64,000 bases of DNA from Cinnamomum chago (lineage: Eukaryota > Streptophyta > Magnoliopsida > Laurales > Lauraceae), in contig CP142451.1 of NCBI GenBank assembly GCA_038049695.1, positions 12,026,001 to 12,090,000 of the forward strand. The letters are read 5' to 3'. Below the pieces are notes generated by a model, which did not search any database, was not told the DNA's origin, and saw nothing but the letters and a program-made list of their open reading frames with translations. Shown here one piece after another: positions 1,164 through 37,190 of the stretch; positions within the stretch are counted from its first letter, which is position 1, and every line of letters begins with the position of its first letter. The translations under genes and the position numbers were made by a program.

Positions 1164-1179
1164 AGCTTGATTTATTGCA

Positions 1180-1270
1180 TGTAACTAGCCAGTCCCATAG
1201 ATGGGATGGGACTATGATGATGATGTAACTAGCCAGTCCCATAGATGGGATAGGCTATGATGATGATGAT
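1180..1270 (+). repeat. 44-bp direct repeat downstream of ENOD93 copy 1
   Basis: The stretch from TGTAACTAGCCAGTCCCATA onward occurs twice with a 44-bp period, followed by (GAT)n. It lies just after the stop codon, probably in the 3' UTR. The same repeat is present in copy 2 at about 30426-30515, so it predates the duplication. Confidence 0.8.
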
Positions 1271-2542: not shown

Positions 2543-2814
2543 CTTAGTCAGAAATACATTTGTGGGCTGTTCATGATGATGACCTTTTCACACCATCAAT
2601 CTTCAATCTTCACTGTTTCTCTGCAACTCTATATCCTCTCAAAGATCATGACAATATAAATAGAAGTGAAGATGGAAGCTTAGTCAGAAATACATTTGTG
2701 GGCTGTTCATGATGATGACCTTTTCACACCATCAATCTTCAATCTTCACTGTTTCTCTGCAACTCTATATCCTCTCAAAGATCATGACAATATAAATAGA
2801 AGTGAAGATGGAAG
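2543..2814. repeat. 136-bp tandem duplication, copy 1 only
   Basis: Units 2543-2678 and 2679-2814 are essentially identical and abut the PPR stop codon on its 3' side. Copy 2 has one unit only (ending just before 31955), so the doubling happened after the segmental duplication, or was lost from copy 2. Confidence 0.93.
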
Positions 2815-2817
2815 CTT

Positions 2818-5043: not shown

Positions 5044-5392
5044 TGAAGTGGTGTTGGTTGAGAGAGATGGTTTGAAAAGCAGTTGATTTTGTGTTACCCG
5101 CCAAATAAAACGGTCGGGAAGAGGGTGAGATGAGATTAGGGCCTTATAGAGGCCAGGTGGGGCCCAAGACCCAACTGGGCCGTTGAAATAGCAGTCCTGG
5201 GTCGATGGTTGGTGCCAATGGGCCGGGTCTAGTCCTGATTTCATATGATGATGGGCTCTACTAGGACCCAAATTTTACAATTTTCTTATCTAGAATACTT
5301 ACTTTCGTTTTGAATACACCCACGAGGTAGTCCTAGAACTGGTATCTAGTATTGGGACTCGATTGGATTCAATAACATTAGGTACTTGTACA

Positions 5393-5867
5393 TAGGGTTG
5401 TAAATGGGTATCCAATCATTCGATTACCTAAAAGTTACAATCCATAAAAAACTAGGTTCGGAATCTAATTTAGGTTCCGATTGATCAAACAGGTCCAGTT
5501 CCAAGTCCATATAGGTTTTGACCCATGGACCCTGGATCTGGCATATGAGCTTTTGATTTGCAAATTGTACCTCAAAATCAACTTTATTTTTGAACATTTT
5601 TATGTATAATATGAGAGGTAGCAGACTTGATGCATTGTTATAAGTTTAATGATATGCTTATTTTAAGAAAAACAAAAAATAAAGAAAAATTAGAATCAAT
5701 TTTGGAACTAGATTCCAGTCTTCTAGATGGATCTGGTTTCGGAACCGGATTCGAATTTTCCTATCGAAAAAACAAAACAGGTTCCGAGTTAAAAGCGGGA
5801 CCATTATTTAGAAACGGGTCCGAGTTCATTATTGTTCCGATCCAGAACCATTTCATTTGCAACCCTA
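5393..5867. mobile_element. hAT-type MITE (TAGGGTTG ends), copy 1
   Basis: A 475-bp non-coding element. It starts TAGGGTTGTAAATG and ends GCAACCCTA, flanked by CTTGTACA (5385-5392) and CTTGTATA (5868-5875). In copy 2 the two 8-bp flanks are identical, so they are a true 8-bp target duplication, the hallmark of hAT elements. It lies about 350 bp upstream of the PPR start and predates the segmental duplication. A related element is at 13804-14342. Confidence 0.8.
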
Positions 5868-7329
5868 CTTGTATACACTCAAACCCAAACTGGAACAATG
5901 TAGCCTACTTTCTAATCTTGTTGAGATTCCTTAGAGAGGTTCAGATCCTCTGCACCTCTTGTATCAAGAGGCTTTTGATATTTTTCAAAATAGGACACGT
6001 GATAGAGTTTTCAGGCCCACTAATTTCTTTAGATGATGGAGGCATTTTACTTTTTAGATCTAGCAACTTTAAAGTTAAGTCCTCTATATATTCATGTCAT
6101 TGGATGATATATTTTTTTCATCTCCTTTTGTTTTAGAAAGATGAGATAGTTAATAATAAAGGGCATCTGGTCGGAGGTCCCTCAACTTTGGTTTTTACTG
6201 CAAACGGTCCACGTGTTTTTTTTGTAGAGCCAAATGTCACTTTTCAAGTTTTAAACACTTAAAAAGTCTACAGTGCCCCTCTTAATACACTCTGTGCAGT
6301 ATACAAAAAAGGAAAACTGATTTCGTTAAGAGTTTCATTTGGAGAAAAAAAAGAGAGTAAATTCGTCAATGTCGTGAAGATTATTTAATTGCACAAATCA
6401 ATGATTACGACAAGTAAGAGAAAGAAAATGGGGAAAACGGATTCAAATAAGAATAAATCCTCTAGAAAATCTGCACGTAGGACTGAACAAAACTCAAATA
6501 AATTTATCTGAGAAGGAGAAATTATCTAGAGAATCTGCACATGGGAATGGGGAAAACTTAGACATTTTTTTCCTTTTGTTCGCGGATAGGCTTTTCTCAA
6601 GCCCTCTTTTATCTCCATATGCTATGGGTTAGCTAGAGAATCGAAAATTATACTAGGACATTATAGACTGCTTGGGGCTCACTTCTACAGTTCTACTCAA
6701 TCATCTTCTTCATGTTTATATTATGGGCCCCTCCCAATTCTAATTAACTTGAGTATACGAACGAGTGCACCTTTAATTATAATAGGTCGTGAACAGTTGA
6801 ATTGCATCCTCTTATGCAGGGGTGGAAGGACAAAATTCTCCTTGGTGGTGACCATACTTTTATGTTTATACTTTTAGATATTTGGGAAGCTAAATCTATT
6901 TATTATTGGCCTACTCACTGATGAATCAATGGCAAGGCATATCATAGAGGCAATCAGGATCCAATCTCATTTTTAGTGGTCAGGTTAGAAAATATAACTC
7001 TCTTGCCATTTGACAAATAGAAAAAAAAAATCCATTTATTATTATTTTCTATCCAAACACATCCACAATGAGACCTTTTCAAACTAGTTGGAGTTGTGAC
7101 TTGTGACTTTCTTAGGGCCTATTTCTTGAGTGGGATTTCTGACAAAAATTGGTTGCTTGGGACTTGAGGGATTCCTGTCAGAAAATCTCTGTTCAATTAA
7201 TAAAATTTGGATAATGTTGGAATTTTAGTATTTCAAAATGCTCAAAAGGAGGCATTTTCAGATTCTGATCCACCTTCTAGCATTTATGAATTAAAAAAAT
7301 TTGGAGACTTTTGGTGGAACTCCGGTGCA
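5868..7329. other. Intergenic, no gene seen
   Basis: AT-rich sequence upstream of PPR copy 1. The short open frames here show no recognisable protein motif and differ in length between the duplicate blocks, which argues against coding function. Confidence 0.6.
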
Positions 7330-9000
7330 CCAATTTCTAAAGATGGGCCCATGTATCATAGTTTTTAATGGTGGACCCCAAATTAGATTTCTTAAAAAGC
7401 GGGTTCCATTTTATGATTTCTAAAAATGTGACCCTGTTACCTCCAGTTTCTAAAAGTAGGCCTTTGTTAGAATTCCATGCACTACAAAAAGTGGGCCCAA
7501 ATTGTAATTCCTATGAAGGTGGCCCCCATATTCTAATTCTTAAACTTGGGCCCCATGTTGTAGTTCATGAAGGTGGGTCCCATGTACAACAAGTTCTAGG
7601 TCATTCCTTATTGCAACTCCTAAAGATGGACTCGCAATATTGTAATTCCTAAGTATGGGTTCATTGATCACAAGCACAAAAGGTAGGCCACATTCATATT
7701 CACATAAAGGCGGGTACCATGTGCTAATTTCTAAAGATATGTCTCATATTGTAATTTCTAAAGGTGAGCCCATGTATGCTAATTCCTAAATGTGGGCTCA
7801 CATTGTAATTTCTAATGGCAGCTCCGATGTTTCCAATGGTAAAATGTGGCATGCAGTTGAATTCCTATAAAGGTAGGCCCCATGTACAGCAATTCCTCAA
7901 GGTGGATCCATATTTTAATTTGAAAAGGTGGGACTATGTAAAAATTCCTAATGGCGGACCCAAGTCTCAATTCCTATAAAGGAGGGCCCATGTTTGGATT
8001 CCTTCCAATTAGGGATGAAAGTGGGCCGGGCCAAGCCGGGCTTTGACAGGCCCTAGGCTCGGCCCTAGTATTTTTCTGTAGGCCCTAGCTCGGCCCTAGC
8101 CCTAGAGGGCCTCAAAAACCCTGGCTCGGGCTCGACCCTTATTAAGTTATGAGGCCCTAGGGCCGGCCCTTTGAACCTGGCTCGATTGAGGCCCTAGGCT
8201 CGGCTCGTGAGCTCGGCCCGTTTTATAATGATATAGTACTAGCTGAAAGAAAATATTTTCAGGAAAAAAAAATCCTGTAGGAATTCAAAGAAATCTGCAT
8301 ATGTAAACCAAAACAAAAAAATGGTCAAATGCATGCATTCATCCCATATTCTCATTCTCATAATTTGGATTGCAGCACTAAAATTAACTAAAATAAAAAA
8401 GACTTCATAAAAGCAAAGGGAGCCTAGTTCCAACACTCCATAATAGTTCAATGTTAATGTAGATTAGCAGCATTAAACTCCAACAATAATACAAATCAAA
8501 TTAAACTCCAATAGCATCATAGAAAAAAATAAAGTATTCGACTAACATCATAAAATAAAGTTTTCATCATCACCAGCATCACCTATAACAACAAGAATAG
8601 AGCCTTGTATATAAATAATAATAACAACAAAGGAAAGATTGTTTCAAAGTTACAAGACTTAAAAACTGGGCAGCCGTTGGTTGGATCCACTTTAATGATC
8701 CAACGGTTCCCACTTGACCTGAATAAATCTTTATATATAATATATATAGGCCCTAGGGCTTACGAGCCGGGCTTCATCAAGCCCTAGCTCGGCCCTTTTA
8801 AGCAAACGGGCTTCTTACTAGGCCCTAGCTCGGCTCTTTTGTCTTTTGAGCCGAGCTCGGGCCGAGCCTATAACGGGCCGTCCGCGGGCAGCCCTAGGAC
8901 GGCCCGGCCCACTTTCACCCCTACTTCCAATGTTATGTAATTTCTAAAGGTGGGGCTTATGTACAACAATTCATAAAGGTGGATCCGTAGAAATGGACAA
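7330..9000. repeat. Degenerate 30-36 bp minisatellite, copy 1
   Basis: From about 7330 to 8009, and again at 8932-9000, a unit resembling AATTCCTAAAGGTGGGCCC followed by ATGT recurs roughly every 30-36 bp with many substitutions. The hAT element at 8010-8923 interrupts the array. The uninterrupted array of copy 2 is at about 36460-37190. Confidence 0.75.
8010..8923. mobile_element. 914-bp non-autonomous hAT element, present only in copy 1
   Basis: The left end is TAGGGATGAAAGTGGGCC and the right end is its reverse complement with one mismatch; the terminal match runs about 23 bp. The element is flanked by an exact 8-bp target duplication, CTTCCAAT, at 8002-8009 and 8924-8931. Copy 2 has an intact empty site with a single CTTCCAAT near 37126-37133. 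The ends are rich in GGCCCTAG/CTCGGCCC subterminal repeats, while the centre is AT-rich and has no transposase. Confidence 0.95.
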
Positions 9001-17341: not shown

Positions 17342-20300
17342 ATGGCCTCTGGTTCTTCTTCCTCTAAGGCTCCCCAAATGGCCAAAAGGGTGGTATTTTC
17401 TCCGTTAGAGAGAAACGGGTTGGCTTCCTTGGACCAGAAGCTGGCCATGGCAAAGAGAAGCTCTCATGGTATTTGTTCTTCTATCATCTTTCTTGCTCAC
17501 CACTTACTGCTTTATTTCACCCGATCCATATAATAACAGAAGGGACATTTTCTGTACGGTCACCTACAGTAGGTCATATCCCTCCCCTGTTACCAAAGTT
17601 CAACATATTACCAAGACGTTCTCCGTACAGCCCGTACCGCTGGGCAGACCACAAGCTGAGTCTTTTTTGCGATATCACAACATATATTGCGATACCGCAA
17701 GTTTTTAATTTGCGATACCGCAAATTAAGTTGCGGTATCGCAAATTATGTTGTGATATCGCAAAAAAAAAACATGTTAAAAGTCAACGAATGCATTTATA
17801 TTTATAATTGATTTCCGTTCCGTTGCTTTCGTCGATCTCTGGCTTAGGTTATTTCTCTGCTCTTTATAAGCGTTGCTTCTGCCACGATTTCTTTTGCATG
17901 TCAACCTTAGGCCATTATCATAAATAGTAATTGAATCTCCTGCGACATCTTTGTCTTAGGTATTTATTCCATGTTTCCCACCTTGTATGTATCTCCCTCT
18001 TATTTATTGTATTATTTTTTTCTTCTTTTGTGTCTTTTGAAAAAAAAAAGTTAGAATACAAGGAATCCCACTTGTAGAAACATTTGAAATATTTTGTGTA
18101 AATATTAATAGTAACCTTAGGTTGGACTTGTGGTGCCTCATTCTTTTATGAACATCCTGTTGTTAATATATTAAAAAATCCCCTTGTTCTCATCATGAAT
18201 TACCAACAACTGGATTTGGCCTGGACGTCTAGTTGCAAAAAACAATGAGGCATGTCTTGTTCATCCCGTCCTACAGTGGGCTCAAGCACAAATTCTGTAT
18301 AAATGTCCACATATTCTTTTAGCATTTGCCTGTTATTGTGGCATTACAGACATCATTTTGATCATTATCTTAAATTGCTAATGATTTTTTTTAATGCTAT
18401 ATATAAGTAAATGGTTTAGATTCTTTAGTAGTTATCAACAAATGGTGATATTCATTAGATGAACGGTCTTGATTGATTTCACAATTATTTTATTTAAATG
18501 GGTGTTTTATGGTGTGTATATATATACTTTTGCTAAATGTAGAGAATTAGTACCAATGAGATGTAAAATAAATTTGCTAAAATATCTAGTGTAGAATTGA
18601 TTAAGATAATGCATTTTTTTTTTTAACGGACAATGCATTGTTATTTGTTTGTTAATGTTATAGAAATATGTAGCTTCATGATATCCTAAATGTCAATGCT
18701 TAGATTTTAACTCTTATAATTTTCCATGTATGCATATAGTAGTTTTTTATTTTACATATAACAACCTTCAAATCTTAGTAATTCCAAACATTCATCTTAT
18801 TTACTAAAAAAATACTTATTCCGATATTTATTTTCAGACTTCAAATCTTCATGGATTATATGGATGTTTGTGGGTAACTTCAAAAATATTCAAAAGTAAA
18901 TCTTATTATTTGAAATTTGTGTTCTACTTCGTAGGATGGATAATACTGAGATATGTATAATATGTCATTATAATGGTATATTAGACGTAAGCAATCCACT
19001 GCCAGTCTACATTGGCGGTGAGCAGAAGGTAATATGGGTTGATGTCAATATAACTTTCAATCAACTACTCGGAAAGATAAACGAAGAAACTGGTTGGGAG
19101 CTTCATGATGAGCATATAATATACAATATCAGTTTCATAATGGCCGAAGCTTCACGTTCATAACCATAAAAAGTGATGATGATCTCCATCGGATGTTTAG
19201 ATTATTCCAAAATGGAAGTCAAGCTATATTTATGTATTTGCATTCAAATAGTGAAGCAAGTGCAAGTCGACAACCATCACATCTAAGGTCTACATACGCT
19301 CGGCCTAACAGCCCGCGAGGGAATAGACCGTCATTTAATTTGTTAATTTGAACAGGTGCCACCACAACCCATCATAACAAATGTAGTAACTGCTGATTTG
19401 TTTAATATCTTATTTTAGTTATGTTACTGATTGTTTTATGACATGGTGATTCACGCAGGGGGAATTTGATGACATATACAAATACCACAAACTTTTCCAA
19501 CGGTGAAAATGATACAGGTGGCCCTTCAACAAGAGAGGATGTTTACAGGTTTGGTTTGCTATACATCTGATTTGATTATATTATGTAATTTATATATGAT
19601 TGACTATTTGCCATGCAGGTGCGACGTCTCATCTTATCCTGTTCGAAGCCAGTTTGACCTGAACACGCCTGTTGTACCTCATGATAACCCATTTGTAGAC
19701 ACCATGCTTGAAGATTTAATAGCTCCCATTAATCTTGCAGAAGATGAAAATGAAAAATTCTCTAATAGAAGGGATGAAGTTGTCATGGATTGGATGGAAA
19801 CGGAAACAGTATCCAAAATTCCTTATTTTGATGGAGGGTGCAATGTAGTGGAGGAGGGGGCTAAAAATGATGAAGATGATTTTGATATTGATGTTGACCC
19901 TAGAGAATATATATTGCAAAATGGCATAGGACCAGGAAGAACATGGCATGCACAAGAAGGATTGGGTCATGCATCAAATGTTGTGAGTGTAGAAGATATT
20001 ATTGATACTTTAGTCCCTGATGATGACCATATTGGTGTGGATCACCATGAGGTATCTTTTCGTGAAATGTGGAATGGAAGACGGTTTCAGACTCGTGAAT
20101 CATTTAGGAATGCATTGAGAAAATTTGCAATGTACAGTAATTTTGAGCTTCATTGGGTGAAAAGGTCTATGACAGAATTAAGTGGAAGGTGTGGTGATCA
20201 TCAATGTCCTTGGCGCATCCATGGATCTATCTTGCAGTCCGGCCCTGAGTTTATTGTGCGAACTTATTCAGAAAAACATACTTGTTCGAAGCCAATGATG

Positions 20301-23300
20301 GGACTCGCACATTCTCAGGCCACATCGGCGTTGATTGCCGATTAGATAAAAGAACGGTTGCGTATCCATCCAAGTTACACTCCAAAAAAAATTGCGACAG
20401 ACTTTCAATTAGAGTTTGGCATCCATATCAGCTACAGGAAAGCTTGGCTAGCAAAAGAGAAAGCATTGATTGACATACGTGGTTCTTATGAAGATTCATA
20501 CAGAATCCTGCCTAGTTATTATATTGAACTAGAAAGGACAAATCCAGGCAGCGTGTCTCATCTGATCGGGGAAGATGATGATTCATTCCAGAGGTTATTT
20601 TGGGCTTTTGGCTCAAGTATTCGCTCTTTCAAGAGTTCATTACGCCCATTAATAGCTGTTGATGGTGCCCACCTTCGTGGAAAATACCCTGGAGTTTTGT
20701 TTGTTGCCGTGACATATGATGGAGACCGTAAGTTATTTCCAGTCGCCTTTGCCATAACCGAGATAGAGGATAGAGATACCTGTGAATCGTTCCTTGCAGA
20801 GTTGGATGTGAACTTAGGGCCCTTTCCAAATTTAACCATTGTATCTGATAGACAAAAAAGTCTCATACGAGTCGTTCAAGAGCATTTTCCTCACGCTAGT
20901 CATACCTACTGCATGCGTCAAATATCAGCAAACTTTAAAGAGAAGTACAAGAATGAGGCTCTGATGGTTAAATTTTGGAATGCAGCAAGAGCATATAGGC
21001 GGGTTGATTATGAGAGATATATGGCTGAAATAAAGGATCTGGATGAAGGTGCATTCAAATGGATTGAAGACATTGGGCCGCATCACTGGGCAAATGCATT
21101 TGTTGAAGGGCGACGGTATGACATGATCACAACCAATATTGCGGAATGCACGAATAGTTTATTGAAAGAGGCTAGGGAGTATCCAATCACAAAACAAGTT
21201 GAGGCCGTACGGTGTAAACTAATGGAATTTTATGATGTACGCCATCGCAGTTCACTTGGCTTGTGTACAAGACTAACTCCATATGCCGAGAAAATACTGA
21301 GCAAAGAATCTGAAGATGCCCGTCGGTTGGGAGTCCGACCTGCAAGCCAATTCGAATACCAGGTTCACTCTTCCGAATACATTGATGTGGTGCATCTTGA
21401 TTTGCGATCTTGTTCTTGCCGGAAGTGGGATGTCTTAGGTATTGCATGTTCGCATGCACTGGCAGCAATGCAAATGAGAGGAGTTGATCCATATGATTAC
21501 TGTGAGCATTGGTTCTCGAGCGATGTTTATCGCTCAACATATAACAATATTGTCCATGCGATCAGAGACATCCACCAATGGGAAATTCAGAGCAATCTTC
21601 GCGTCTTACCTCCACAGGCACGACGACAAGCTGGCCGACCTAAAAAGAACAGAACTCGTACTGAGGACAGACAAAAGCGACAAGTCACGTGTTCCAATTG
21701 TCGCCAGATTGGGCATAATCGAAAGAGATGTTGTTACCCACCTGCCCGACAGTAGTTATGTGTACCAATAAGCTCAAAACCTTTTGTATGATTATCTGTC
21801 TAATTGTGTCTATATGTGACTACTTTGTAGAAAGAGATGATACATTTTGTATATATTGAAGCAGTTGCTTGACGAGTCACTAAGACTATGTGTACTCTTA
21901 TAATGGATATGCATACACTTTTTGTGGTTGGGCATTCAGTCTTAGTTTGTAGATTTTCAATGTGCTCCTGCTGGTAAGAATTGGAACATGGAATATGTCC
22001 ATTCACAATGTGTACTTAAGCTAAGCAGTATCCAAATGTGCATCTAGTCAGATTTTCTCTACCAATTTAGACACCTTCCTCCCCTGATCACAACCTTCAC
22101 AATGTCCATTCACATTGTGTATTTACTTGCCAATAAATATTCATGATAATGTATATTTTAGTTCAATTTTTTATCTTACTTGGTGGGTTTTTTTTTATTA
22201 TTATTAGATGCTTTCTGTGCCATTTGATCACAACATATATTAACTGACAAGGTGATATGATCCTCACATGGGATTGTCCATTCATCAGTTGTTATTTAAT
22301 CAAACAACATGAATAATGTATATCTTACTTCAGCCCAACAAATGGAGCTAATCGTAATGAAATAACACAACATTTATTCATGTGTATCTTACTTTTTTTT
22401 CTTTTTTATGAGATGCTTTCCGTACCTTGACAAAACCTTCCTCTCCTAACAGTGTCATAAGATGAAAGCCCAACACATGGAATTTTCGATTCACAGTTGT
22501 TATTTTATTCTTACAACATAAATAATGTATATCTTACAAGAGAGCACACTCAGAAGTTACACCTGCTTCTCTTCACCATACATGAAGCAGTCACATTGAA
22601 CGATCTTAATTCATGTGCACATGAAGTGTTGTATTTATTCTTAAATTACTTGTAAGTTCACATCTAACAACTTTTGTTATTCAAATGCACACTCACATTC
22701 ACAATTCACACTTCAGGCCACATCTACACATGAAGTGCTATACATGCACTTAAATCACCGGCACATTCACATTTCTACACCTTCTCTTCACCTACACATG
22801 AAGTGTTCAAAATCCACATCAAACTTCAGCTGGACATTCCTTCAGTGTTGTATAGTATTTGTGCTCCAACTGAACAGATATTTGAAAAATCATTCGTCTC
22901 TTCACCTGTAAATGAAGCACTCATGATTTACATCTTAAGTCATCTGCACATTCATTCAGTGCAATACATTATCTTAATTCACACTGCACATTCACATTGT
23001 ACACCTTCTTCTCTTCAACTGCACATTAACTTTGAATGTGATCATCTCAACTCATTTGCACAATATAGTGTAATACACCATCTTAAATAACCTGCAGCTT
23101 CACATTATATAACTTATTCGTCTCCACCTGTACATCACATGGCACTATAGAACACCTACCTTCATTTACATATTCGCATGATGCATCGGCAATCGTCTAA
23201 TATCACCTGCTCATTCATTTGAAATTGACACCATCCATGCATGGAATGTCTGGCCACATCCCTGGAGATACCAAAACCTATATCTACCTATAAACAAATC

Positions 23301-24901
23301 CATGCTAAAGTCTCATTCATATATAAAAACAACCAACAAATTTGATATGTAAAAACAACCATCAGTTATTTACACCGTCACCATTTGTTTACATCAAATG
23401 TAAGACACATTGGATCACACGCGGAACAATGGAATGGATACATCCAAAATAAAAACAATTACTACGCAAATATGGCAAAAAACACTGCAGTACATCTCAA
23501 ATTCTTGGTTATACATTGACTCATCCCCTCTCTTCCACCACCGCATTTGTTTCTAAAGCATTTTCATCCTCTACCACGTCTGCCAATTAAAACCTTTCAT
23601 GTCATATTAGACATAAAGCGAAAGCGAACTCGATCCGATCCCAACTCCGCTCTATCGGTCGCCCTATCTTCATCCGAGAAAAGGCCCAAATCTGCTCCAC
23701 ATGTAAAACCATTGTGCATCGATAAAAGATAAACATAATAAAACATGGAGATCATTTGATCATAAAGTAAAATTATTACCTGTAAAAATTGAAGTGGGCC
23801 CGTAAGTGTTCTGATCCCATCTTTCAATCTTGTTGCTCTACCTAGAGTCCTATACAAATTTGCCAGACAGGCTGGCCCCCACGCATATCTTTCAAATGTC
23901 CTAAACAACTCAAGGAGGTATCCGTTCCCCCTCGACCCGGAAGTATTGCTACAAATTTGTTGGGCCACTAAGCAAAATAGGTATGCACGGGTATAACGTT
24001 GTACAATTTCTTCAGATGCCCCCTCTGGACATCTGCCAAAATGGAGACGAAACCAGGTGTACTTTATTTGTGCACCCATGCAGTCCAAAGCTTGGTTGGG
24101 AACTATCCCTAATAAGTCAAAACATAATGCTCTCATCTCTTCTACCCTGGCAATTGTACGACCCGTAACTAGCCTTCCATCGATGGGAAGGCCATAAATG
24201 TAGGCAACATCCTCCAATGTTATTGTCGCCTCGTCGAAGTTAAAATGGAAAGTATTAGTCTCGGGTCTCCATCTCTCCACCAGCGCCCATATAATGCCAT
24301 GGTGAATTTTCATTTTACCAATTGAGGCCAAATTGTGTAGGCCGACCATACGGACAATTTCTTCTTGACTTTCATTTAATTCCCAGAATTCATTTAAAGG
24401 GTCAACTGGGATGCACTTCAGTGGGCCAAGCTCCTGCAATTAACAAATGCATAACATCATAACAAGAGACTCGCGAGAAACCATCTGAAAATAATAGAAT
24501 TATGTTAAAGTTTAGAAATGAATTGACTCTACCTGCCCTTCCCATATCACTTTTGATATATGATTATCTTGATCAGTAAGGATATGTTTATCCAAAGGAC
24601 CGGGATCCATCTTTCAACTATCCAGTCACAAAAAGAATAAAAGTTAAAAATACAAAATATGGCAAGAACCATTATTTCAACTGCATTATACATGATCACC
24701 TCAATAGCTAACAGCTAGCCAATCAATTACTCTAATACCTCATCATCACTAGTCATTACTATTATAGTGACCAGTTTGGTTATTATAATGTGTCCATCTG
24801 TGTTTGTATGAATGTTTATGTATATCATCATAACAGTAATTATTATTATTATTATTACTGCTATCAATCAAAGATTTAATTAGAGAAACTCTATTCTCAT
24901 A

Positions 24902-24939
<38 letters not shown>

Positions 24940-27900
24940 ATATTTATTTATGTTTTTAAATCTTGTGAAGTGGGATTTTTAAATTTTGGAGTGTGGCAGC
25001 TGGCAACGCCTCAAGTGGGATTTGGTTTTCATTTTTCTTTGAATCTGGAACTGGTTTTTATTTTTCATTTTTCTTGGAATCTGGGACATGGGTTTTGCTC
25101 TATGAGAAGCTGGGTTTTCATTTTCATTTTTTCTTGGCATGTGGGACATGGGTTTTCCTCTATGAATATGATATGTTGGTTTTAGTTTTCATTTGATCTT
25201 AATTTCAAAGTTAGTTGGTTGCAGCAATTGTTGTATACCAATGGTCAGTTCTGTCTCAGTGTACCATTTGACTTTCCAGAATATATTACTCCACATGGAA
25301 AGAGATTTCCCACCAAAGAAAAGATACAGTTGAATGTGAATTTTGGTTTAGCAATGGAAGTTACATTCAACACTGCTAGCCATCCTTTGAAGGTTTACCT
25401 TTAGTTGTAGATTTAGTAGTTGCTTGCGAGCTTTGCTATTATAATCCGACTCTGCAAAAGTTCTAGTTTGGTGCTTGTTTTCTTTTGGACTCCAACTAGA
25501 TGGATTGCTTGGTCTTTATCAAATGATATGGATATTTTCCAGGAAAAAAGACGACAAATGGGGAAAATGGGTTTCTTGTATGAAGCAGATGTGCTTAAAT
25601 GGTCAACTACTGATTTTCGTTTTTCCTATACGGTGAGACATATTAGGTTCCACTGATGGATTACTACTTTCTTCTTCTTGGTCTAACTTACATGTCCTTA
25701 AGTTCATCTATGGTCCAGCTTCACCAAACTGTGCTTCTATCTTGAATGTTCGTATAAGAAAAGGAAAATGTGAACGGTTTCCTCATGAAATTGAAATATG
25801 TATTGGCATTCAGCATGTATGCTGCAGTTTATCGTCTGAAGTGTTGTCTATTTTAATCAGCTACTTCTCTTTGCCTGATTGGAAGTCAAATTCAAGCAAG
25901 CAACCTGTTGCTGATAATCATACTACGAGGATGTCTCTGGCAATAATAATGGTATCTTAATCAAGGTTGAGATACTTGATTCGATCCTAATTTTACCTGT
26001 TGAAAACAATACCAGTGATTCCTTACAACTTGGACTTCAACAATTATATTGCAGTTATGTCACATTGAGGAATTCAACGGATGCACTTAAGGATGTTCCT
26101 CATAAGCGTGATTTCAACAGTTAGCGTTGTTGATACCATTCAGCTTGTCAATGTGTTTTTGGTATGCAGAGGATTACTTTTTCTATGGACTAGAAGCAGT
26201 TATACTTGTTATAGATCATCTATTGACAATTGGTAGAGAATCCCAGGGGTTCACAACTGATGTTTTGCAGTTTGTGCAGTTCAAGAGAAGTTTAAAGGAG
26301 AGCAATGCCGTTTTACTTGATTCAAGAGAGTTATTGTTGTGGTGGATTGGATTCGGTTCTATCTTCAAGGCATCATGATATAATTGTAATCTTAAGAGAT
26401 ATATTTACTTGTTTCCCCTTGATATTTAATGTGAGTTACAACTATGTTGTCTTGTGTCTGGTTTCTTAATTTCAAATCTTATTGTTCATGTGAAATGTTT
26501 ATGTCATTTACTTTGTATGGAAGTAGTTGTTCAGTTTATTGTGTCCCATCATTGTTTTTAGCTGACAAACCATTGTGTTCTAGATACATGCTTTCTGCTT
26601 CTGTATGTTGGCTGCTCACCACTTTAGAAATCCTGCTGTGACTTTTCTCTTATCATGCAACAGTATTGTTGAGTTGTAAACTGCATCATGGTTCGATTTG
26701 GAGCATCCATAACATAAAAAAACAGCAATACATTTACTGTCTTAATTTAATTGGAATTCAACTTTGTTTTGATCTCATCCTTGTATGTTACTTTCAGTTA
26801 AGATGAATAGGCAAATGTTACAATATTATTATGTCCTGCTAATGATCATTCTCGTGTGTTCCTTTGGAGCAGAGGCATCTTGCCAGCAGTCGATGTTATT
26901 GGTGATCATATTTTGGTTGGGGTGAGTTGATGATGCTTTAAGATATTGCGTTTGTGTATTTGCAGATATCATTTATCTCAATCTATTTTATAAACAAAGG
27001 AAAGCATTCTGTTTGAGTCACAGACGCTACAGTTGAAGGGATAGCAGATGTCATTTATCTTGATTTATTTTATAAACAAAAGAAAACATTCTGTTGAGCC
27101 ATAGACACAAAAGTTTAAGGGATTTGATCCCTAATCCAGGAAATCATCTATAACAAAGATGTTTCAGCCAGCTTTAAAACATTGGAGGTTGAAATGACAA
27201 GTAGAAAGGATTTTTAAGATGTTGATAGCATGCATGATTCACCTTTGTCTTGTCAGAATTCTTCTTTCTCAATGCTTTGAAGCTTGAAATTCAACATGAA
27301 CTTTGATGCCTCCATTAGATCTTTTGAAAGTCAAGTCAAGTCAGGTTAAAGCTTCTAGTATTATCTGATATGATCAAGTTTTTTGGGTACTCGACTCTAG
27401 TCTTCAACCTTGTGCTTGTGACATTGAAACAACTTTCTGAGTTAGGGGCATTTGTCTAGTTTTTTTTAGCATTCTGTTGATTTCTTTTTTCTAATATTGA
27501 AATGTGAATAGAAAGGATTTTTAAGATGTCGGTAGCATGGATGATTCACCTTTGTCTTGTCAGTATTCTCCTTTCTCAATATTAAAAAAAAGAAGTATTC
27601 TTCTTTCTCAATGCTTCAAAGCTTGAAATTCAACATGGACTTTGATGTCTCCATTAGATATTTTGAAACTCTAGTCAAGCTACTTCATATGTTTTTTCAA
27701 GGTGGAAAGCTTGTAGTATTATCTGATATGTTCAAGTTTTTTGGGTACTCGATTCTAGTCTTCGATCTTGTGCTTGTGACAATGAACAACTTCTGAGTTA
27801 TGGGCATTTGTCTAGGTTTTTTGAGCATTCTGTTGAGTTCCTTTCTCTAATATTGGAAATTTGTTTCTCAATCAAAAATTTTGAGTAATTGCTTCAATTT

Positions 27901-30408
27901 TAGCTTTCTCAAAAAATAATCTACCTCTTAGCCAAAGTTTCCAGACTTTTCCCCACTTTGAACAAGCATAAAATGAGTTTACTCATGCTGCATCCTCCAT
28001 CTAAATCTTGTTATAATTGCTTGAACTTCTCTCGTCAATATCACTAGCATGATACATTCAGAAAGGAGGCTTACCAAGTACCAACACCTTTACTTGCTTG
28101 TGTGTGTGTGTGTTGCAGTGGTGCGCGGCTAAATAATGTAATAGAACCACAAGAGCACAACGACCTGTAAGAGAGGGGCAATCAAACCACAACGCCCTAC
28201 AAACACCAAGACCTACAACTCCAAGCCTCAATGCAAAACAAGAAGAACAAACAACAACGAATCAAAACCAAATCAAAGACTGCATTTGAAGGAATCGAAC
28301 ACACCTGATTGATTAAGATCGACCTGATCTATTCACTTAGATGAAAGAAAACCCAAAAAATAACCACTGGGGAGATGAGGATGGAGACGATGGAGACGAT
28401 GAGGCTTTGTCGAAGGCGAATGGACGTTAGGACCTTGCGTATTTGCAAATAGGTTGGCGAGGGAGGAAGATGGTGAAATTCGGCTGGGGAGAGAGTTACC
28501 GTTGGTGAAATTAGGGATAGTCGAACAGAGAGGGTTAAACGGATGAAAGGGGCTTTCTTGTGTTGTGATATCGCAACATAATTTGCGATATCGCTACTAA
28601 AAAATTGCGATATCGCAACTTAATTTGCGATACCGCAAATTAAAAACTTGCGGTATCGCAATATATGTTGTGATATCGCAAAAAATACTCAGCTTGTGGT
28701 CTGCCCAGCGGTACGGGCTGTACGGAGAACGTCATGGTAATATGTTGAACTTTGGTAACAGGGGAGGGATATGTGCTACTGTAGGTGACCGTACAGAAAA
28801 TCTCCCATAACAGAAAGTAGGAACATACCTGTTGTTGTTGTATGTGAATGATGAAGTCAGTCCCCCGTTTCTGTCTCTTCAAGTGGGCTAACAAATCTTT
28901 TATTCATACTATCATTTTTCAGTGTGGCCCACCTGCTTGATGGGTCAGATGATGATCTGACGGAGACCATTCCCATTTGGGTCTGTCTCAAAATGCAACA
29001 AAACCAGGAGCATACCTCCTCTGACTCATCTAATGACAAAACCACGAGGAATATACCTGTGGTTGTTGTATAGTTCGCATGTGAACTATGGAGTCCATCA
29101 GCACTATCTATTCAAGTGGGCTCATAGATCTCTATCCATACTATCATCTTTTGGAAGGGCCCACCCGCTTGATGGGTCAGATGATGGATCTGATTGAGAC
29201 CATCCATATTTGGGTCTGTCTTAAAAATCAATGTAATCAAGTTGTGTGAATGAGATCTGTCATTTATTTCCTGTGTTTTTTTGGATTGCAGAAGGAGTTC
29301 TTGCAGGGGCTAAGGCTGCAGTTCTTGCTACCATTGCAAGTGCAATTCCAACGGTAAGAAATGAAATTTGAATTACATAAGTACGCCAAGCTGACTAATC
29401 AGAGGAAGGCTGAGTTTGGCCTAGCTTGTTTTTGGTATTATTGACATGGGCAACTGAACTTATGTAAATCATGGTCTACAATGCAGCTTGCTAGTGTGAG
29501 GATGCTGCCATGGGCAAGGACCTACCTTAATCCCACAGCTCAAGCTCTTATCATCTCATCAGGTGATTATTATTGATGTTGTTGTTAATCCTACTACTAC
29601 TGCTGTTATTATGATTATGATTATTACTGCTACTATGCTACTATTACAATCATTATTATATATGCACTTCGATCTGTGTCAATGTTATGGTGCTAGTGGG
29701 ATGGAACAGTCCGGGCCAACCAGGCCTACATTGCATTTGGGCTATGTTTTAGGTCTTCTGGACTGCAGCTTATGCCTAAAACTAGCCTATCCTGACACCT
29801 TCAGTACAAAACCAAATAAATTTTGAAACCTGGCTAGGTCATGGGTCACATAATTTTGAGAACGGATGGGGCTGGGACTAACTTTCAGGCCTATAGGCTG
29901 GAGTAACTAAACAGACTGGGCTTAAATTAGCAACAGGCCTTGCCCAATCTGGCCCATGAAAACCCATAATCAGTAAATCTCAACATACTTGGGGGTTTGG
30001 TGATGGGCCTCAATATCACTCAGATCAGCAGTGATGTTATTCAACAATCAGACTGAATCTACGATTGGGCTGTGATTGACTTCCCACTTGATTTAGTTTT
30101 CCCTTCTTGGAATGATTCAATCTTGCAGTAAATATATAACACTCAAGCATGAGTAAAAGTCATTAGTCATGACCATTACCTATCATAGTTACAGGGCTAG
30201 ACTGAAAGACAAAGGTTTTTCCTTGATGTAAAAACTGGGCCCTTATATTACACGGCTGGGTGGATATACTCATTTCCATATTGTTGTTACAAGTAATGAA
30301 ATGGTGTTTGTGATGGCAGCTGCGGGTGCTGCATACTTTATAGTTGCGGACAAGACTGTGCTGGCTTCAGCAAGGAAGAACTCCTTCGAGCAGGCCCACC
30401 AACGTTGA
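17342..30408 (+). CDS. ENOD93: Early nodulin 93-like protein, copy 2, complete, interrupted by an 11.8-kb intron
   Basis: Four exons: 17342-17468, 29292-29353, 29487-29562 and 30320-30408. All introns are GT/AG and the joined frame is 117 codons plus TGA. Exon 1 encodes MASGSSSSKAPQMAKRVVFS, followed by LASLDQKLAMAKRSSH, the usual ENOD93 N-terminus. Its split codon joins exon 2 to give the family signature SHEGV(L)AGAKAA. Length and order fit the family (about 105-120 aa). The protein core is hydrophobic with one or two likely membrane segments (AAVLATIASAIPT; ALIISSAAGAAYFIVA). Intron 1 contains a complete MULE (17542-28806). Whether transcripts still splice across it cannot be told from sequence, but all splice sites remain intact and the insertion is well clear of both borders. 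Confidence 0.85.
17542..17743 (+). repeat. MULE left terminal inverted repeat
   Basis: It starts GGGACATTTTCTGTACGG. Its inner half contains 14-bp palindromic motifs of the type TTGCGATATCGCAA at 17667, 17687, 17710 and 17730, and another just inside at 17750, that is at 20, 23, 20 and 20 bp steps. Confidence 0.96.
18936..21755 (+). pseudogene. MuDR-type MULE transposase with frameshift and premature stop
   Basis: The first part (18936 on) encodes a PB1-like N-terminal domain (ICIICHYNG, VYIGGEQKVIWVDV). A 2-nt offset near 19137 shifts the frame; the homologous reading resumes as NGRSFTFITIKSDDDL. Probable exons 2 (about 19460-19548) and 3 (19619-21755) follow. Exon 3 has the MuDR DNA-binding zinc region (GDHQCPWRIHG, YSEKHTC), the MULE catalytic domain (IAVDGAHLRGKY, IVSDRQKSL, the Glu of TTNIAECTNSLLKEA), a SWIM zinc finger (CSCRKWDVLGIACSHALAA) and a C-terminal CCHC knuckle (CSNCRQIGHNRKRC). 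An in-frame TAG at 20343-20345 separates the DNA-binding and catalytic domains, with the same frame open on both sides. It is probably a former CAG (Gln). Confidence 0.9.
22540..23170. repeat. Degenerate repeat region inside the MULE
   Basis: Words such as CTTCTCTTCACC, ACACATGAAG, ATCTTAATTCACA and TGCACATTCACATT recur at uneven intervals of roughly 90-140 bp. The region lies between the 3' ends of the converging transposase and PMD genes and is non-coding. Confidence 0.55.
23602..24610 (-). CDS. Plant mobile domain (PMD) protein carried by the MULE
   Basis: Three exons on the reverse strand: 24533-24610 (MDPGPLDKHILTDQDNHISK, then VIWEGQ), 23780-24433 and 23602-23691. All have GT/AG borders in phase 0, giving 273 codons plus TGA. 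Recognisable PMD landmarks are FWELNESQEEIVRMVGLHNL, VERWRPETNTFHF, EATITLEDVAYIYGLPIDG and the C-terminal IWAFSRMKIGRP. The PMD family includes MAIN and MAIL1, nuclear proteins needed for transposon silencing and genome stability, and PMD genes are known to be carried by MuDR and Ty3 elements. This protein ends soon after the last conserved motif, so it is shorter than the MAIN/MAIL1 proteins. It is convergent with the transposase. It has no internal stop, unlike the transposase. Confidence 0.85.
24904..24936. repeat. (CT)n microsatellite
   Basis: About 33 bp of CT dinucleotides upstream of the PMD gene, near the border with the captured host fragments. Confidence 0.95.
25225..25632 (+). pseudogene. 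Captured fragment of a VIT/VWA (ITIH-like) gene
   Basis: Two exons with intact borders: 25225-25392 (56 codons, containing GQFCLSVPFDFPEYITPHGK and KEKIQLNVN) and 25543-25632 (30 codons, containing GKMGFLYEADVLKWSTTDF). Both match the N-terminal VIT region of plant inter-alpha-trypsin-inhibitor heavy-chain-like proteins, and they are in the same order and phase as in such genes. The rest of that gene, including the VWA domain, is missing. Upstream, 24970-25200 has a repeated TGGGACATGGGTTTT-CTCTATGA motif but no recognised exon. The intron is kept, so capture was from genomic DNA. Confidence 0.6.
25676..26122 (+). pseudogene. Captured fragment, probably of a VPS13-like gene
   Basis: An open stretch reads FIYGPASPNCASILNVRIRK, then FPHEIEICIGIQHVCCSLSS and ISYFSLPDW. 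After a one-base frame change near 25925 it continues as GILIKVEILDSILILPVE and LQLGLQQLYCSYVTL to a stop at about 26122. The pattern resembles the repeated chorein/VPS13 region of plant VPS13-like lipid-transfer proteins, but I recognise it only from general pattern and am unsure. It follows the VIT fragment directly without a common reading frame, so two donor genes are likely. Confidence 0.4.
26964..27815. repeat. Internal duplications in the MULE
   Basis: Two diverged adjacent pairs are present. First, an about 81-bp unit (GCAGATATCATTTATCT and GCAGATGTCATTTATCT) at 26964 and 27045. Second, a unit of about 255-305 bp at 27206-27460 and 27510-27815, both starting GAAAGGATTTTTAAGATGT and ending near GGGCATTTGTCTAG; the second carries a short insertion. 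No protein is recognisable. Confidence 0.75.
27816..28562. other. Right subterminal part of the MULE, no gene seen
   Basis: Contains a (GT)n run at about 28099-28113. Then comes a GA/CGA-rich stretch (28370-28500) like a 5' UTR or promoter, next to the right TIR. No open frame of note. Confidence 0.45.
28605..28806 (-). repeat. MULE right terminal inverted repeat
   Basis: Inverted copy of 17542-17743. It has palindromic TTGCGATATCGCAA-type motifs at 28605, 28625, 28648 and 28668, and two further copies just inside at 28563 and 28583. The outer end reads GTACAGAAAATCTCCC. Confidence 0.96.
28821..29227. repeat. Diverged direct repeat in the 3' part of ENOD93 intron 1
   Basis: 28821-28993 and 29048-29227 share ATACCTGT-GTTGTTGTAT, CTTGATGGGTCAGATGATG and ATTTGGGTCTGTCT in order. 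The second ends exactly where the visible homology to block 1 begins. The intron has therefore had its own old tandem duplication before the MULE arrived next to it. Confidence 0.8.
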
Positions 30409-31954
30409 AGCTTGATTTATTGCATGTAACTAGCCAGCCCCATAGATGGGATGGGACTATGATGATGATGTAACTAGCCAGTCCCATAGATGGGATAGGA
30501 CTATGATGATGATGATGAAAAATGAACTTAGCTTGTACTCTGCTTATTATATATATATAGATAAATGAGAAGCGAGTTTAGTTTTGGATAACAATTGAGT
30601 TGCAGCAAGGAATCAAGTAAGAAAAAAAAAATCTTGGTTTGCATGTCAAAAGTATGCTCCTGTTTATGGGTACCCCACCTAGATGCATCTAATTACAAGA
30701 ATAAGGAGACGGGAAGGATATGATGCGGATTAATGATTGTTCAAAGTCCACTCTAGTTAGATTATTTTAATCCTTCACTGTAGTGCCTTAAAAGTTTTAG
30801 CAGTTTGAAAGATGGATTGGATCAATCCTAAGTCAGTGGTGTTCATTTGCTGGGTTAAACGACCCATTTATTTCTCAGGCCTAAAATTCAGGACTGGATT
30901 CAGCTCATCTGCCAGAAAGTCAGGCCCAGGTCTAGCCCATTCGCAAAGTTTATAACCCCCGTAGTATGAAGTTTGTTGGATCAGGCTGGTCCTCAATAAC
31001 ATGTAACCCCTACTTCCCTTAGCATGCACTGTTGATGATACTGAACTGAAGTGCCTGTATATTGGATAATCATGTTCCCTTCTATTATGCTTCCAGTACA
31101 TCCATCTTTATACTTCCCAACATCTCTACGCCAAGATGGAAGATGTCTTGAACCGTGTTCTGTTAGGATTATAACCTGAAAATCTTAGTGTGCTCCCATT
31201 GCCTTTCAGCCTGCCCGCATCACTGATATGGATCCAATTGTAGATGATCACATATAACATGGATGATGATTATATGGACAGGATGAATCATGTCAAAGCA
31301 ACAAGGAAGACTGTTTGTGACCTGTTGGGTAGACGTCTTGTGTTCTGGGTAAACAGGATTGGTAATAGGTTGAGTCCATTGGAGTAGCCAGGACCAGGTT
31401 GAGTCCATATGTATTTTGGCAATAGGTAATTGTACCAGCAGTCACCGGCTTTCCTCAAGGCATATGATCTAACCTGTAAACCTTAGGTCTAAGAGTGGAA
31501 AAGAAAAGAGTTTTTTTTCTATGCCTGTGGACATAGGCACACCGCTGAACCCACATAAATCTTTTTTTTTTTTTTCTAATTCTCCCCTGTATATTTGCTT
31601 TGTGTGGTTGATTCAGGTTGTTACACTTTAGCGCACAGCATGAATATAAACCTTGAGCATGGGAGATAACTAGCTACTATTTTAGTGATTTTTGATCCCT
31701 TTATTTCTTCTCTTCTATAACTAACAGCATTGGTCTCAAGTAAGAACTTAATTTGGAGGGTTAATTATATCATTTTGGCTTTTTTATGAATAATGTAATG
31801 CCATCATTATGACATCTTAGTCAGAAATACATTTGTGGGCTGTTCATGATGATGACCTTTTCACACCATCAATCTTCAATCTTCACTGTTTCTCTGCAAC
31901 TCTAGATCCTCTCAAAGATCATGACAATATAAATAGAAGTGAAGATGGAAGCTT

Positions 31955-34180
31955 TCACCAGTAGTCCATGCATGAACACAAGCCATCTTTAAAATGGTGG
32001 AAACGGCAACGATCTCTGGCAATAATCTCCCTATTGAAGATCTTAGAAATGAGCTTTGCTTCTGAATGGCAATTCCCACATACGCGAAGGTTCTTCACAA
32101 TTCGAATTGTTGTCCCTGGACTAGTACTGATCAACCCAAAGGCAATCGCTATCTTCTCACTGTGATAACACAATGCCCCTTCCTTCATGGACTCCATATC
32201 ATAGAGCACTTCGGAGGTATCCGGCTCATGTCCTGCCAATTCCAACTGGTTGTCTATTTCATCTAGCATTTCATAAATCTGGCTGCTCTGTGGATGAGCT
32301 TTGTCCCCAACCAGAAATTCATGAACAACACCATCCACCTCGATGGAGCTACACCCAGGCAATTTCTTCATTCCCATATCATTTAATCTAGTTCTTATTC
32401 TCGCCACGTCATCCCATCTACCAGCTCCTGCATAAATGTTAGATAAAAGCGCATAAACACCAGGGTTTTCGGGCTCCAATTCAAGAAGCTGACCGGTTAC
32501 TAATTCAGCCAATTCTACATTGCCATGAACACGACAAGCACCAAGCAAAGATCCCCAGATAGCCCCATCAGGTTTCATCTCCATCTTCTCCATAATGTCC
32601 TTTGCCTCGTCAAAGAGTCCAGCTCGACTGAGAAGATCTATCGTGCATCCATAGTGGTTCAGTTTGGGTGGGATCTTATAAACCCGGATCATGGAATCAA
32701 AATGCTGACGGCCAGCTTCTACCAAACCGGCATGGCTACAAGCAGACAGAATTCCAACAAAGGTGATATCATCTGGTTCGAACCCTTTATCGACCATTTT
32801 AGAGAAAAGGGCAAGAGCCTTATCTGCATTTCCATGCGAAGCTAGAGCAGAAATCATAGCATTCCAAGAAGCCAAGGTTTTGACTTCCATTGCATCAAAT
32901 AGTTGTTCCGCAGACTTGATACTCCCACATTTAGCATACATGCCAATGAGGCTAGTGTAAAGGGAAGTATTGGTTGTGCTACTCATGTTCTTGGCTATAT
33001 AAGCATGTATCCATTTACCAAGATCAAGAGCACCCAAGTAAGTACAAGCTGGAAGAACATTCAAGAAGGTGACCTCATTAGGCTCCTGGTTTGAGAGCTG
33101 CATTTGCCTAAACAGGGCCAATGCCTCTTTGTAGCGGCTCAAATGAGTACATCCACCAATCATAACATTCCATGAGATTTGATCTTTTTGAGGAATTGCA
33201 TCGAACAATGTGCGAGCCGTCTCCAAGTCCCCGCACTTTGCATACATATCTATGAGAGCATTAACAAGCCGGATATTTGAACCAAACCCATTGTCTTCAA
33301 TCCAAGACCGAACCCAATCCCCTATTTCAATAGAACCCAAGTGGGCGCAGGCTGAAAGGACACTAACCATTGTGCTTTCATTGGGTTCAACCATAGCATT
33401 CAACATCTCTTGGAAAAATTCTAATGCCTCTTTAAACTGACTGCTTTGGGCATACCCAGAAATCATTGCATTCCATGACACTACATCCCTCACTGAAATC
33501 TCATCAAAAAGTTTACGGGCATCATTCAAATAACCCCGTGAAGCATACCCAGCAATCAACGCCGTGAAAGACACCGCATCACGGAGAGGACTTTTATCGA
33601 ACACCCGGCGGGCATCATCCAACTCACCACATCTCACATACATATTGATGAGGGAGGTGTGTACGAAGGCGTCGGAGTCAAGTCCAAATTTCAAAACATG
33701 CACATGGACCTGTTTCCCTTCGTCTGGGGCTGGAATTTGGGCGCAAGATTTCAAAAGGAAGGGGAAGGTGTACGAATTCGGCTCGACCACTGAAAGGAGC
33801 ATGCGGATGTAGAAGGAGATGGCGAGAATAGGAGTTGGGCTCAGAGAGTAGCCTCGGATGATGGTGTTCCAGATTATGGGGTTGGGTTCATGGATGGAAT
33901 TGAAGATGAGGAGAGCGTAGGAGAGGTCGCCCAAGGGGGAGACGGCGCAGAACTCGATGAGCTTGCTTAGAGCGAATTGGGTGTTGTGGAGGCCAGTTTT
34001 GATGAAGTGGGCGTGGGCTTGTTTGATGGTTTGGGTGCCTCTGCAAGTGGAGAGGAGAGAAAGAGATGGGTGGTTTTGGAGGTATTTGTATGGAGGGTCT
34101 GAAGAAGGGAGAAAATGGAGAGGGAATGAAGAAGAAGAAGAAGTAATTGGAATAGAAGGTGATGAAAATACAGTTGCCAT
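31955..34180 (-). CDS. OTP82: DYW-class pentatricopeptide repeat protein, OTP82-like, copy 2
   Basis: A 741-codon single-exon gene with start ATG at 34178-34180, equivalent to the start chosen for the first copy; the in-frame upstream extension to 34408 is also present. Domain order is transit-like leader, P-L-S PPR array, E/E+ and a complete DYW domain ending CSCMDYW. Over the 817-codon open frame I count 12 amino-acid differences from copy 1. At several of them this copy has the residue usual for the family (Ala308, Asn440, Arg in EAGRQHF, Met in DIMEKM). It has one unusual residue of its own, Thr for Met in YGC(M/T)IDLL. If one paralog keeps the ancestral plastid RNA-editing role, this copy is the better candidate. 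It converges with ENOD93 copy 2. Confidence 0.9.
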   Translation of the reverse strand: MATVFSSPSIPITSSSSSFPLHFLPSSDPPYKYLQNHPSLSLLSTCRGTQTIKQAHAHFIKTGLHNTQFALSKLIEFCAVSPLGDLSYALLIFNSIHEPNPIIWNTIIRGYSLSPTPILAISFYIRMLLSVVEPNSYTFPFLLKSCAQIPAPDEGKQVHVHVLKFGLDSDAFVHTSLINMYVRCGELDDARRVFDKSPLRDAVSFTALIAGYASRGYLNDARKLFDEISVRDVVSWNAMISGYAQSSQFKEALEFFQEMLNAMVEPNESTMVSVLSACAHLGSIEIGDWVRSWIEDNGFGSNIRLVNALIDMYAKCGDLETARTLFDAIPQKDQISWNVMIGGCTHLSRYKEALALFRQMQLSNQEPNEVTFLNVLPACTYLGALDLGKWIHAYIAKNMSSTTNTSLYTSLIGMYAKCGSIKSAEQLFDAMEVKTLASWNAMISALASHGNADKALALFSKMVDKGFEPDDITFVGILSACSHAGLVEAGRQHFDSMIRVYKIPPKLNHYGCTIDLLSRAGLFDEAKDIMEKMEMKPDGAIWGSLLGACRVHGNVELAELVTGQLLELEPENPGVYALLSNIYAGAGRWDDVARIRTRLNDMGMKKLPGCSSIEVDGVVHEFLVGDKAHPQSSQIYEMLDEIDNQLELAGHEPDTSEVLYDMESMKEGALCYHSEKIAIAFGLISTSPGTTIRIVKNLRVCGNCHSEAKLISKIFNREIIARDRCRFHHFKDGLCSCMDYW

Positions 34181-34529
34181 TGAAGTGGTGTTGGTTGAGA
34201 GAGATGGTTTGAAAAGCAGTTGATTTTGTGTTACCCGCCAAATAAAACGGTCGGGAAGGGGGTGAGATGAGATTAGGGCCTTATAAAGACCAGGTGGGGC
34301 CCAAGACCCAACTGGGCCGTTGAAATAGCAGTCCTGGGTCGATGGTTGGTGCCAATGGGTCGGGTCTTGTCCAGATTTCATATGATGATGGGCTCTACTA
34401 GGACCCAAATTTTACAATTTTCTTATCTAGAATACTTACTTTCGTTTTGAATACACCCACGAGGTAGTCCTAGGACTGGTATCTAGTCTTGGGACTCGAT
34501 TGGATTCAATAACATTAGGTACTTGTACA

Positions 34530-34988
34530 TAGGGCTGCAAAGGGGTTCCAATTATTCGATTACCTGAAAGTTACAATCCGTAAAAACCCAGGTCCGAAAC
34601 CTAATTTAGGTTTCGATTGATCAAACGGGTTCGGTTCCAAGTCCATATAGGTTTTGACTTATGGACCCGGGATCCGGCATATGAGCCTTTGATATTGCAA
34701 ATTGTACCTCAAAATCAACTCTCTTTTTTTAACATTTTTATGTATAATATAAGAGGTAGCAGACTTGACGCACTGTTATAAGTTTAATGATATGCTTATT
34801 TTAAGAAAAATTAGAATCAATTTTGGAAATAGATTCCAGTCTTCTAGATGGACCTGATTTCGGAACCGGATTCGAATTTTCCTATCGAAACAACAAAACA
34901 GGTTCCGAGTTAAAAGCGGGACCGTTATTTAGAAACGGGTCCGGGTTCATTATTGTTCTAATCCAGAACCATTTCATTTGCAACCCTA
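34530..34988. mobile_element. hAT-type MITE (TAGGG ends), copy 2
   Basis: Orthologous, within the duplication, to 5393-5867. Flanks are identical 8-bp CTTGTACA (34522-34529 and 34989-34996). It is about 16 bp shorter than the copy 1 version because of small internal deletions. Confidence 0.8.
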
Positions 34989-34996
34989 CTTGTACA

Positions 34997-36459: not shown

Positions 36460-37190
36460 TCTAAAGATGGGCCCATGTATCATAATTTTTAATGGTGGAC
36501 CCCAAATTAGAATTCTTAAAAAGTGGGTTCCATATTATAATTTCTAAAAATGTGACCCAGTTATCTCCAGTTTCTAAAAGTAAGCCTTTGTTAGAATTCC
36601 ATGCACTATAAAAGGTGGGCCCAAATTGTAATTCCTATGAAGGTGGCCCCCATATTCTAATTCTTAAACTTGGGCCCCATGTTGTAGTTCATGAAGGTGG
36701 GTCCCATGTACAACAATTTCTAGGTCATTCCTTATTGCAACTCCTAAAGATGGACTCGCAATATTGTAATTCCTAAGTATGGGTTCATTGATCACAAGCA
36801 CAGAAGGTAGGCCACATTTATATTCACATAAAGGCGGGTACCATGTGCTAATTTCTAAAGATAGGTCCCATATTGTAATTTCTAAAGGTGAGCCCATGTA
36901 TGCTAATTCCTAAATGTGGGCTCACATTGTAATTTCTGATGGCAGCTCCGATGTTTCCAATGGTAAAATGTGGCATGCAGTTGAATTCCTATAAAGGTAG
37001 GCCCCATGTACAGCAATTCCTCAAGGTGGATCCATATTTTAATTTGAAAAGGTGGGACTATGTAAAAATTCCTAATGGCGGACCCAAGTCTCAATTCCTA
37101 TAAAGGAGGGCCCATGTTTGGATTCCTTCCAATGTTATGTAATTTCTAAAGGTGGGGCTTATGTACAACAATTCATAAAGGTGGATCCGT
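36460..37190. repeat. Degenerate 30-36 bp minisatellite, copy 2 (uninterrupted)
   Basis: Same GGTGGGCCCATGT / AATTCCTAAA-type units as 7330-9000. It contains the empty target site (CTTCCAAT near 37126-37133) of the hAT element found only in copy 1. Confidence 0.75.

Follow-up and report, generated by a model that had tools for sequence, protein, structure and literature searches.

What do the evenly spaced palindromes in both ends of a plant Mutator-like element (MULE) do? The question is raised by a 64,000-nt window of the Cinnamomum chago genome (GCA_038049695.1, contig CP142451.1, forward-strand positions 12,026,001 to 12,090,000), in which a MULE of 11,265 bp occupies positions 17542 to 28806 and carries an array of 14-bp palindromic sites in each end. 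These arrays are a real and well-supported cis-structure, from which we infer protein binding. Judging from the sequence, we regard it as an even call that the palindromes act in cis as a docking array for dimers of transposase, which would engage them through a candidate WRKY-GCM1-like zinc finger.

Palindromic arrays in the window element and its copies

An earlier note on this DNA had described 11 sites at steps of 20 to 23 bp, and both observations were confirmed. Five sites (17667, 17687, 17710, 17730 and 17750) make up the left array at 17667 to 17763, with steps of 20, 23, 20 and 20 bp, and six (28563, 28583, 28605, 28625, 28648 and 28668) the right array at 28563 to 28681, with steps from left to right of 20, 22, 20, 23 and 20 bp (20-23-20-22-20 from the outside in); each site has 0-1 mismatch to TTGCGATATCGCAA. 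The first site lies 125 bp inward from each terminus, and because the two ends are inverted copies of each other the 11 sites amount to only 5-6 independent ones. With up to three mismatches allowed, the window holds 14 matches to the 14-mer against 1.8 expected (maximum 6 in 100 shuffles); the three that fall outside the arrays are scattered and carry three mismatches each. The two arrays are the densest clusters of near-palindromes in the 64 kb, with 7 and 6 per 110 bp compared with at most 4 in 20 mononucleotide shuffles.

The exact 14-mer has 386 occurrences in the host genome (1.06 Gb in 14 contigs), compared with one for a reversed, composition-matched control, and adjacent site pairs number 182 against none for the control. 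Copies were drawn in three overlapping ways: by the whole end or paired motif, by the outer 121 bp alone, and by palindromes on contig 1. The first draw yielded 51 distinct ends, every one with an array, as expected because these searches used the array. Their steps were 20 bp (135 cases), 23 bp (82), 22 and 24 bp (6 each) and 18, 21, 25 and 43 bp (1 each), with six sites in 30 ends, five in 15, four in 3, seven in 2 and three in 1. The commonest layout, read from the outside in, is about 20-23-20-23-20, that is, six sites in three doublets; the linker inside a doublet is 6 bp, with a single exception of 4, and the T-rich linker between doublets, 7 to 11 bp long, is in most cases 9 bp. Some ends lack one site, leaving steps of 23-23 or 20-20, and the left array of the window is itself one site short of the commonest six.

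The draw by the outer 121 bp, which is blind to the array, returned at least four sites (up to three mismatches each) in all 30 ends read (40 of 283 candidates scored), the first at a common offset, 6-7 bp inside; site spacing was clearly disturbed in two of them (L061 and L076). At the loci on contig 1 that the palindrome draw added to those already covered, at least two sites were present in 16 of 16, and outer end sequence was recognised with up to five mismatches at 13. Among copies, then, motif and spacing are kept while the letters of the linkers drift. At one locus (L010, C6:46804437-46807662) two window-family MULEs are neighbours, with ~0.5 kb between the right end of the first and the left end of the second, which suggests clustered insertion.

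Could such arrays be without any binding function? They would then have spread by descent and slippage as a foldback-like structure, in which the self-complementary ends matter only as hairpin DNA or RNA, or not at all. The left end does fold far above shuffles (z -11), the array is common to family copies by descent, and an end may have as few as 3 sites or as many as 7. We nevertheless consider this explanation very improbable: the core and its T/A flanks recur across families, as described below, and linker middles vary where linker lengths are kept. Moreover, the half-site changes that the earlier note had taken to be compensated are not so, GGTATC and GATACC each breaking one base pair of the dyad. 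In 71 copies with 386 sites altogether, the palindrome is perfect at 107 sites and has one to three broken pairs at the other 279; no more than four compensated site-pairs were seen, which argues that pairing as such is not kept.

A shared core at family-specific spacings

Triplets of GATATC at 15-24 bp steps number 1134 genome-wide, compared with 34 for CTATAG, which has the same letters and is likewise palindromic. When T/A was required three bases outside the core (TNNGATATCNNA) the counts were 844 and 0; in all of these counts, triplets that overlap were scored separately, and members of a family are not independent of one another. The window site TGCGATATCGCA agrees with TNNGATATCNNA, and the motif GATATCNNA..TNNGATATCNNA..TNNGATATC behind the latter counts offers a lead for finding non-autonomous MULEs. 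On contig 1 the matches listed include 50 triplets in about 28 places, the window family among them; 15/18 is the step pattern of 29, 18/24 of six and 20/23 of three, the remainder showing other patterns. Among the 30 distinct linkers of 12 nt, position 3 is A in 29 and position 10 is T in 27, the letters between these two being mixed; among 21 distinct linkers of 9 nt, A at position 3 and T at position 7 are each found in 20. A separate GATATC tract (L108, C1:12403860-12404380) repeats an 18-bp palindrome, ATAGTCGATATCGACTAT, has GATATC steps of 22, 42, 44, 45 and 66 bp, and is without clear MULE ends.

A search with the catalytic frame of the transposase (91 scored of 3420 candidates) found close copies at 84-97% identity and sister families at 57-65%, and the 4.4 kb upstream of five sister transposases (L101-L105) were inspected. 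In L101 (64%), eight GATATC sites at steps of 18, 15, 18, 15, 18, 15 and 18 bp come after a MULE-like terminus, GGGAAATTTACCGTACGG. For 9 of 12 family members such an end is found on the strand of the transposase match, 2.03-2.05 kb upstream of it; for the remaining three there was none among the 23 matches compared of the 46 listed. L106, a related element, has an inverted right end that can be aligned with the L101 end up to and including the start of the array (score 94; maximum 29 in 200 shuffles). Three ends of the L101 family (62-65%), at C4:4664635, C4:81468118 and C11:21957641, are 100% identical over 271-275 bp, and the transposase and plant mobile domain (PMD) matches of these copies have identical scores, suggesting very recent movement of this family.

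L104 (58%) has two copies of GGCCGATATCGGCC, 22 bp apart. Genome-wide, pairs of GCCGATATCGGC number 62 against 0 for a control, and all 50 among the matches listed are 34 bp long, which corresponds to a step of 22 although 16-28 was permitted. Such a pair lies 2.0 kb upstream of four of the eight transposases of the L104 family, two others (C9 and C12) falling outside the stretch of the genome that the GCCGATATCGGC listing covered. The GCCGATATCGGC class has G at -3 and does not fit TNNGATATCNNA, so the wider core is not universal. L102 (60%) carries two TGCAATATCGCA-type sites with an AATATC core, 18 bp apart. L105 (59%) showed no array at a recognisable end in the 4.4 kb upstream; two GATATC sites 18 bp apart lie, by eye, inside its apparent N-terminal coding region. 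L103 is uninformative because a window-family element ends there. GATATC arrays with another fixed spacing (18/15 or 22) are therefore present in two of the four informative sister families.

The claim of the earlier note that the sites face the same side of the DNA holds roughly for the window family (a mean resultant of 0.84, taking 10.5 bp as one helical turn) but not for the 18/15 class (0.35); the 18/24 class gives 0.64.

The 18/24 class includes a minimal element, L107, of about 296 bp, which has five GATATC sites in the middle and no genes, and whose two ends are inverted copies of each other (score 56; maximum 28 in 200 shuffles); its flanks bear an imperfect resemblance to a target duplication. 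Among the 40 of 433 candidates scored, 18 places match it from position 1-3 to 292-296. Three copies fall on the covered part of contig 1, with triplets intact at 13427997 and 21015016 and not at 8326114. An element of little more than ends and an array has multiplied, which suggests a role for the array in the movement or survival of the element and not in the expression of its genes.

The same element bears on a second explanation, in which a host transcription factor or silencing protein reads the palindromes and the array serves as an enhancer or promoter for element genes, or as a nucleation site for silencing. GATATC-type sites resemble GARP/MYB-related sites such as P1BS (GNATATNC), which would favour a host reader. 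We think a host reader quite unlikely, since L107 has no genes to express, and flanking bases and spacing are family-specific, a pattern easier to reconcile with a reader encoded by the element than with a single host protein common to all families. On the other side, promoters are present in MULE ends (PMC3310237).

Candidate readers of the array

Which protein encoded by the element might read the array? The transposase of the window copy is split between an N-terminal frame at 19473 to 20345 (+), with a DBD_Tnp_Mut domain (PF03108, E 1.8e-9; best stretch about 20070-20252), and a catalytic frame at 20346 to 21755 (+), with a MULE domain (PF10551, E 4.7e-13) and a SWIM zinc finger (PF04434, E 3.7e-9); an in-frame TAG at 20343-20345 breaks it. 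Among the matches listed, several paralogues of the catalytic frame have an open frame of more than 700 aa and a match free of stops. The transposase has a predicted DNA-binding zinc finger. This domain is one reason why a binding array fits best; the others are the retention of motif and spacing as linker letters drift, the array in every array-blind end, the GATATC sites at other fixed spacings in two of four informative sister families, and the multiplication of a 296-bp element consisting of inverted ends and an array. The suggestion of an array for a dimeric DNA-binding protein, made in the earlier note, therefore survives as the best-fitting reading, shorn of compensated changes and of any general same-face rule.

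In such a docking array each site (core TNNGATATCNNA, window form TGCGATATCGCA) would be read by two dyad-related DNA-binding domains. With sites set in doublets (14+6+14 bp) and T-rich linkers of about 9 bp between them, several transposase dimers could load side by side, perhaps cooperatively, through the zinc finger adjoining the catalytic domain, and the loaded array may help to assemble and pair both ends for cutting. Differences in spacing and flanking bases between families would then lead a transposase complex to prefer the ends of its own family. A bolder extension, which we hold to be doubtful, is a spacing code, in which one word (TNNGATATCNNA, or at least the GATATC core) would be common to a group of plant MULEs and the alternating distances (20/23, 18/15, 18/24 or 22 bp) would mainly set family identity, as a ruler for the multimer geometry of each family's transposase or a partner protein.

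Repeated motifs in transposon ends have precedents. Muta1 and Muta5 of Aedes aegypti and Tm1 of a root-knot nematode, all of them foldback-like MULEs, have long terminal inverted repeats (TIRs) with several copies of a 12-15 bp motif (PMC5225508, PMC3169594), and Muta1 and Muta5 share with the window element a target-site duplication (TSD) of 8-9 bp, their derivatives sharing the TIRs. The window element likewise has several short motif copies in its TIRs, but the units of Muta1 and Tm1 are described as tandem repeats, in Muta1 with uniform spacers of 3-4 bp, whereas its own sites are dyad-symmetric with linkers alternating between 6 and about 9 bp; the descriptions of Muta1, Muta5 and Tm1, in the parts consulted, give no cross-family core. 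In the hAT element Hermes, short subterminal sites include a palindromic pair bound by two BED zinc fingers, and phase is important at the tip (PMC10368747); Hermes belongs to another superfamily and has AAGT/AAGC half-sites and asymmetric ends, unlike the similar arrays at both ends here. TNPA of En-Spm (CACTA), from an unrelated superfamily and itself an unrelated protein, is an element-encoded DNA-binding protein that reads repeated subterminal motifs needed for excision (PMC2613891). The MURA site of maize Mu lies inside a long TIR, as do the sites here, and is described as a ~32-bp site, not a palindrome array (PMC3310237).

Some of these systems weigh against a docking function. All five natural derivatives tested with the Muta1 transposase were mobilised by it, and since repeats are often fewer in derivatives, the array need not always be complete; the authors of the Hermes study doubt that inner repeats bind further transposase in cells (PMC10368747). 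Both findings tell against inner repeats being strictly required, and, together with the failure to find a perfect GCCGATATCGGC pair near two of the six testable L104-family transposases (C5 and C8), they slightly lower our confidence in docking and raise that in the VANC-like and host-factor rivals.

The main rival to a docking array is anti-silencing of the kind performed by VANC, a protein that reads motif arrays in VANDAL elements of Arabidopsis (PMC5735166, PMC10398659). The array would here be the address for an element-encoded protein distinct from the transposase, with the PMD protein the likeliest; this protein would bind the non-coding ends and lift or block silencing of its own family. 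A PMD gene (23597 to 24439, minus strand; PF10536, E 5.1e-40) is convergent with the transposase, and the same convergent pair is present in sister families. PMDs are already known in MULEs and suspected of anti-silencing, a role that Ikeda et al. suggest for the MULE-captured PMD (PMC5418596). VANDALs are also MULEs with arrays of short, family-specific motifs in non-coding parts; these YAGTATTAY-like motifs lie in introns and upstream regions of elements with degenerate TIRs and a VANC gene, whereas the window element has GATATC palindromes, a PMD gene and TIRs of 205 nt (17542-17746 and 28602-28806) that are 96% complementary. A Pfam scan of six frames gave no match to a VANC gene (DUF1985), though spliced exons could escape such a scan. 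From copy to copy VANC repeats grow and shrink, but the window-type array mostly holds its phase; no DNA-binding function of PMD was found, either here or in the literature consulted; and an array in the gene-less 296-bp element fits a need in transposition at least as well. Anti-silencing through the array accordingly seems to us unlikely.

What appears to be new is a dyad-symmetric, phased array whose core is common to several families and whose spacing is family-specific; we found nothing on such phased palindrome arrays in the parts of the open-access literature consulted. There, the maize MURA site was the only named transposase site of a plant MULE, so the way in which transposases of plant MULEs recognise and pair their ends seems a largely open matter. 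With a recurrent word, spacing that differs by family and a zinc finger as candidate reader, this question of end recognition becomes testable by binding and excision.

The element and its surroundings

The window element has the terminus GGGA(C/G)ATTTTCTGTACGG and is flanked by a 9-bp TSD, ATAACAGAA, with the same letters at 17533 to 17541 and 28807 to 28815 (+). A perfect 9-bp TSD was found in all nine paired elements tested, the window copy among them. Together with the long TIRs and a MuDR-type transposase (PF10551, PF03108 and SWIM), this identifies the element as a MULE, and its antisense PMD gene is a feature of the MULE clades with antisense PMD (Dupeyron 2019, PMC6446971). Within it, an imperfect tandem duplication occupies 27189 to 27863, the two copies being offset by about 310-360 bp (repeat families D4, D6, D7 and D8).

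Exon 1 of a small gene (MASGSSSSKAPQMAKRVVFSPLERNGLASLDQKLAMAKRSSHG) lies to the left of the MULE at 17342 to 17470 (+) and a later exon of the same gene at about 30250-30390 (+), about 1.5 kb to its right; the element, standing between the two, is therefore probably intronic. This gene resembles ENOD93. The window also contains a segmental duplication (1 to 8009 and 29229 to 37133, about 97% identity), which holds two nearly identical 818-aa reading frames on the minus strand, at 2818-5274 and 31955-34411, presumably PPR-like.
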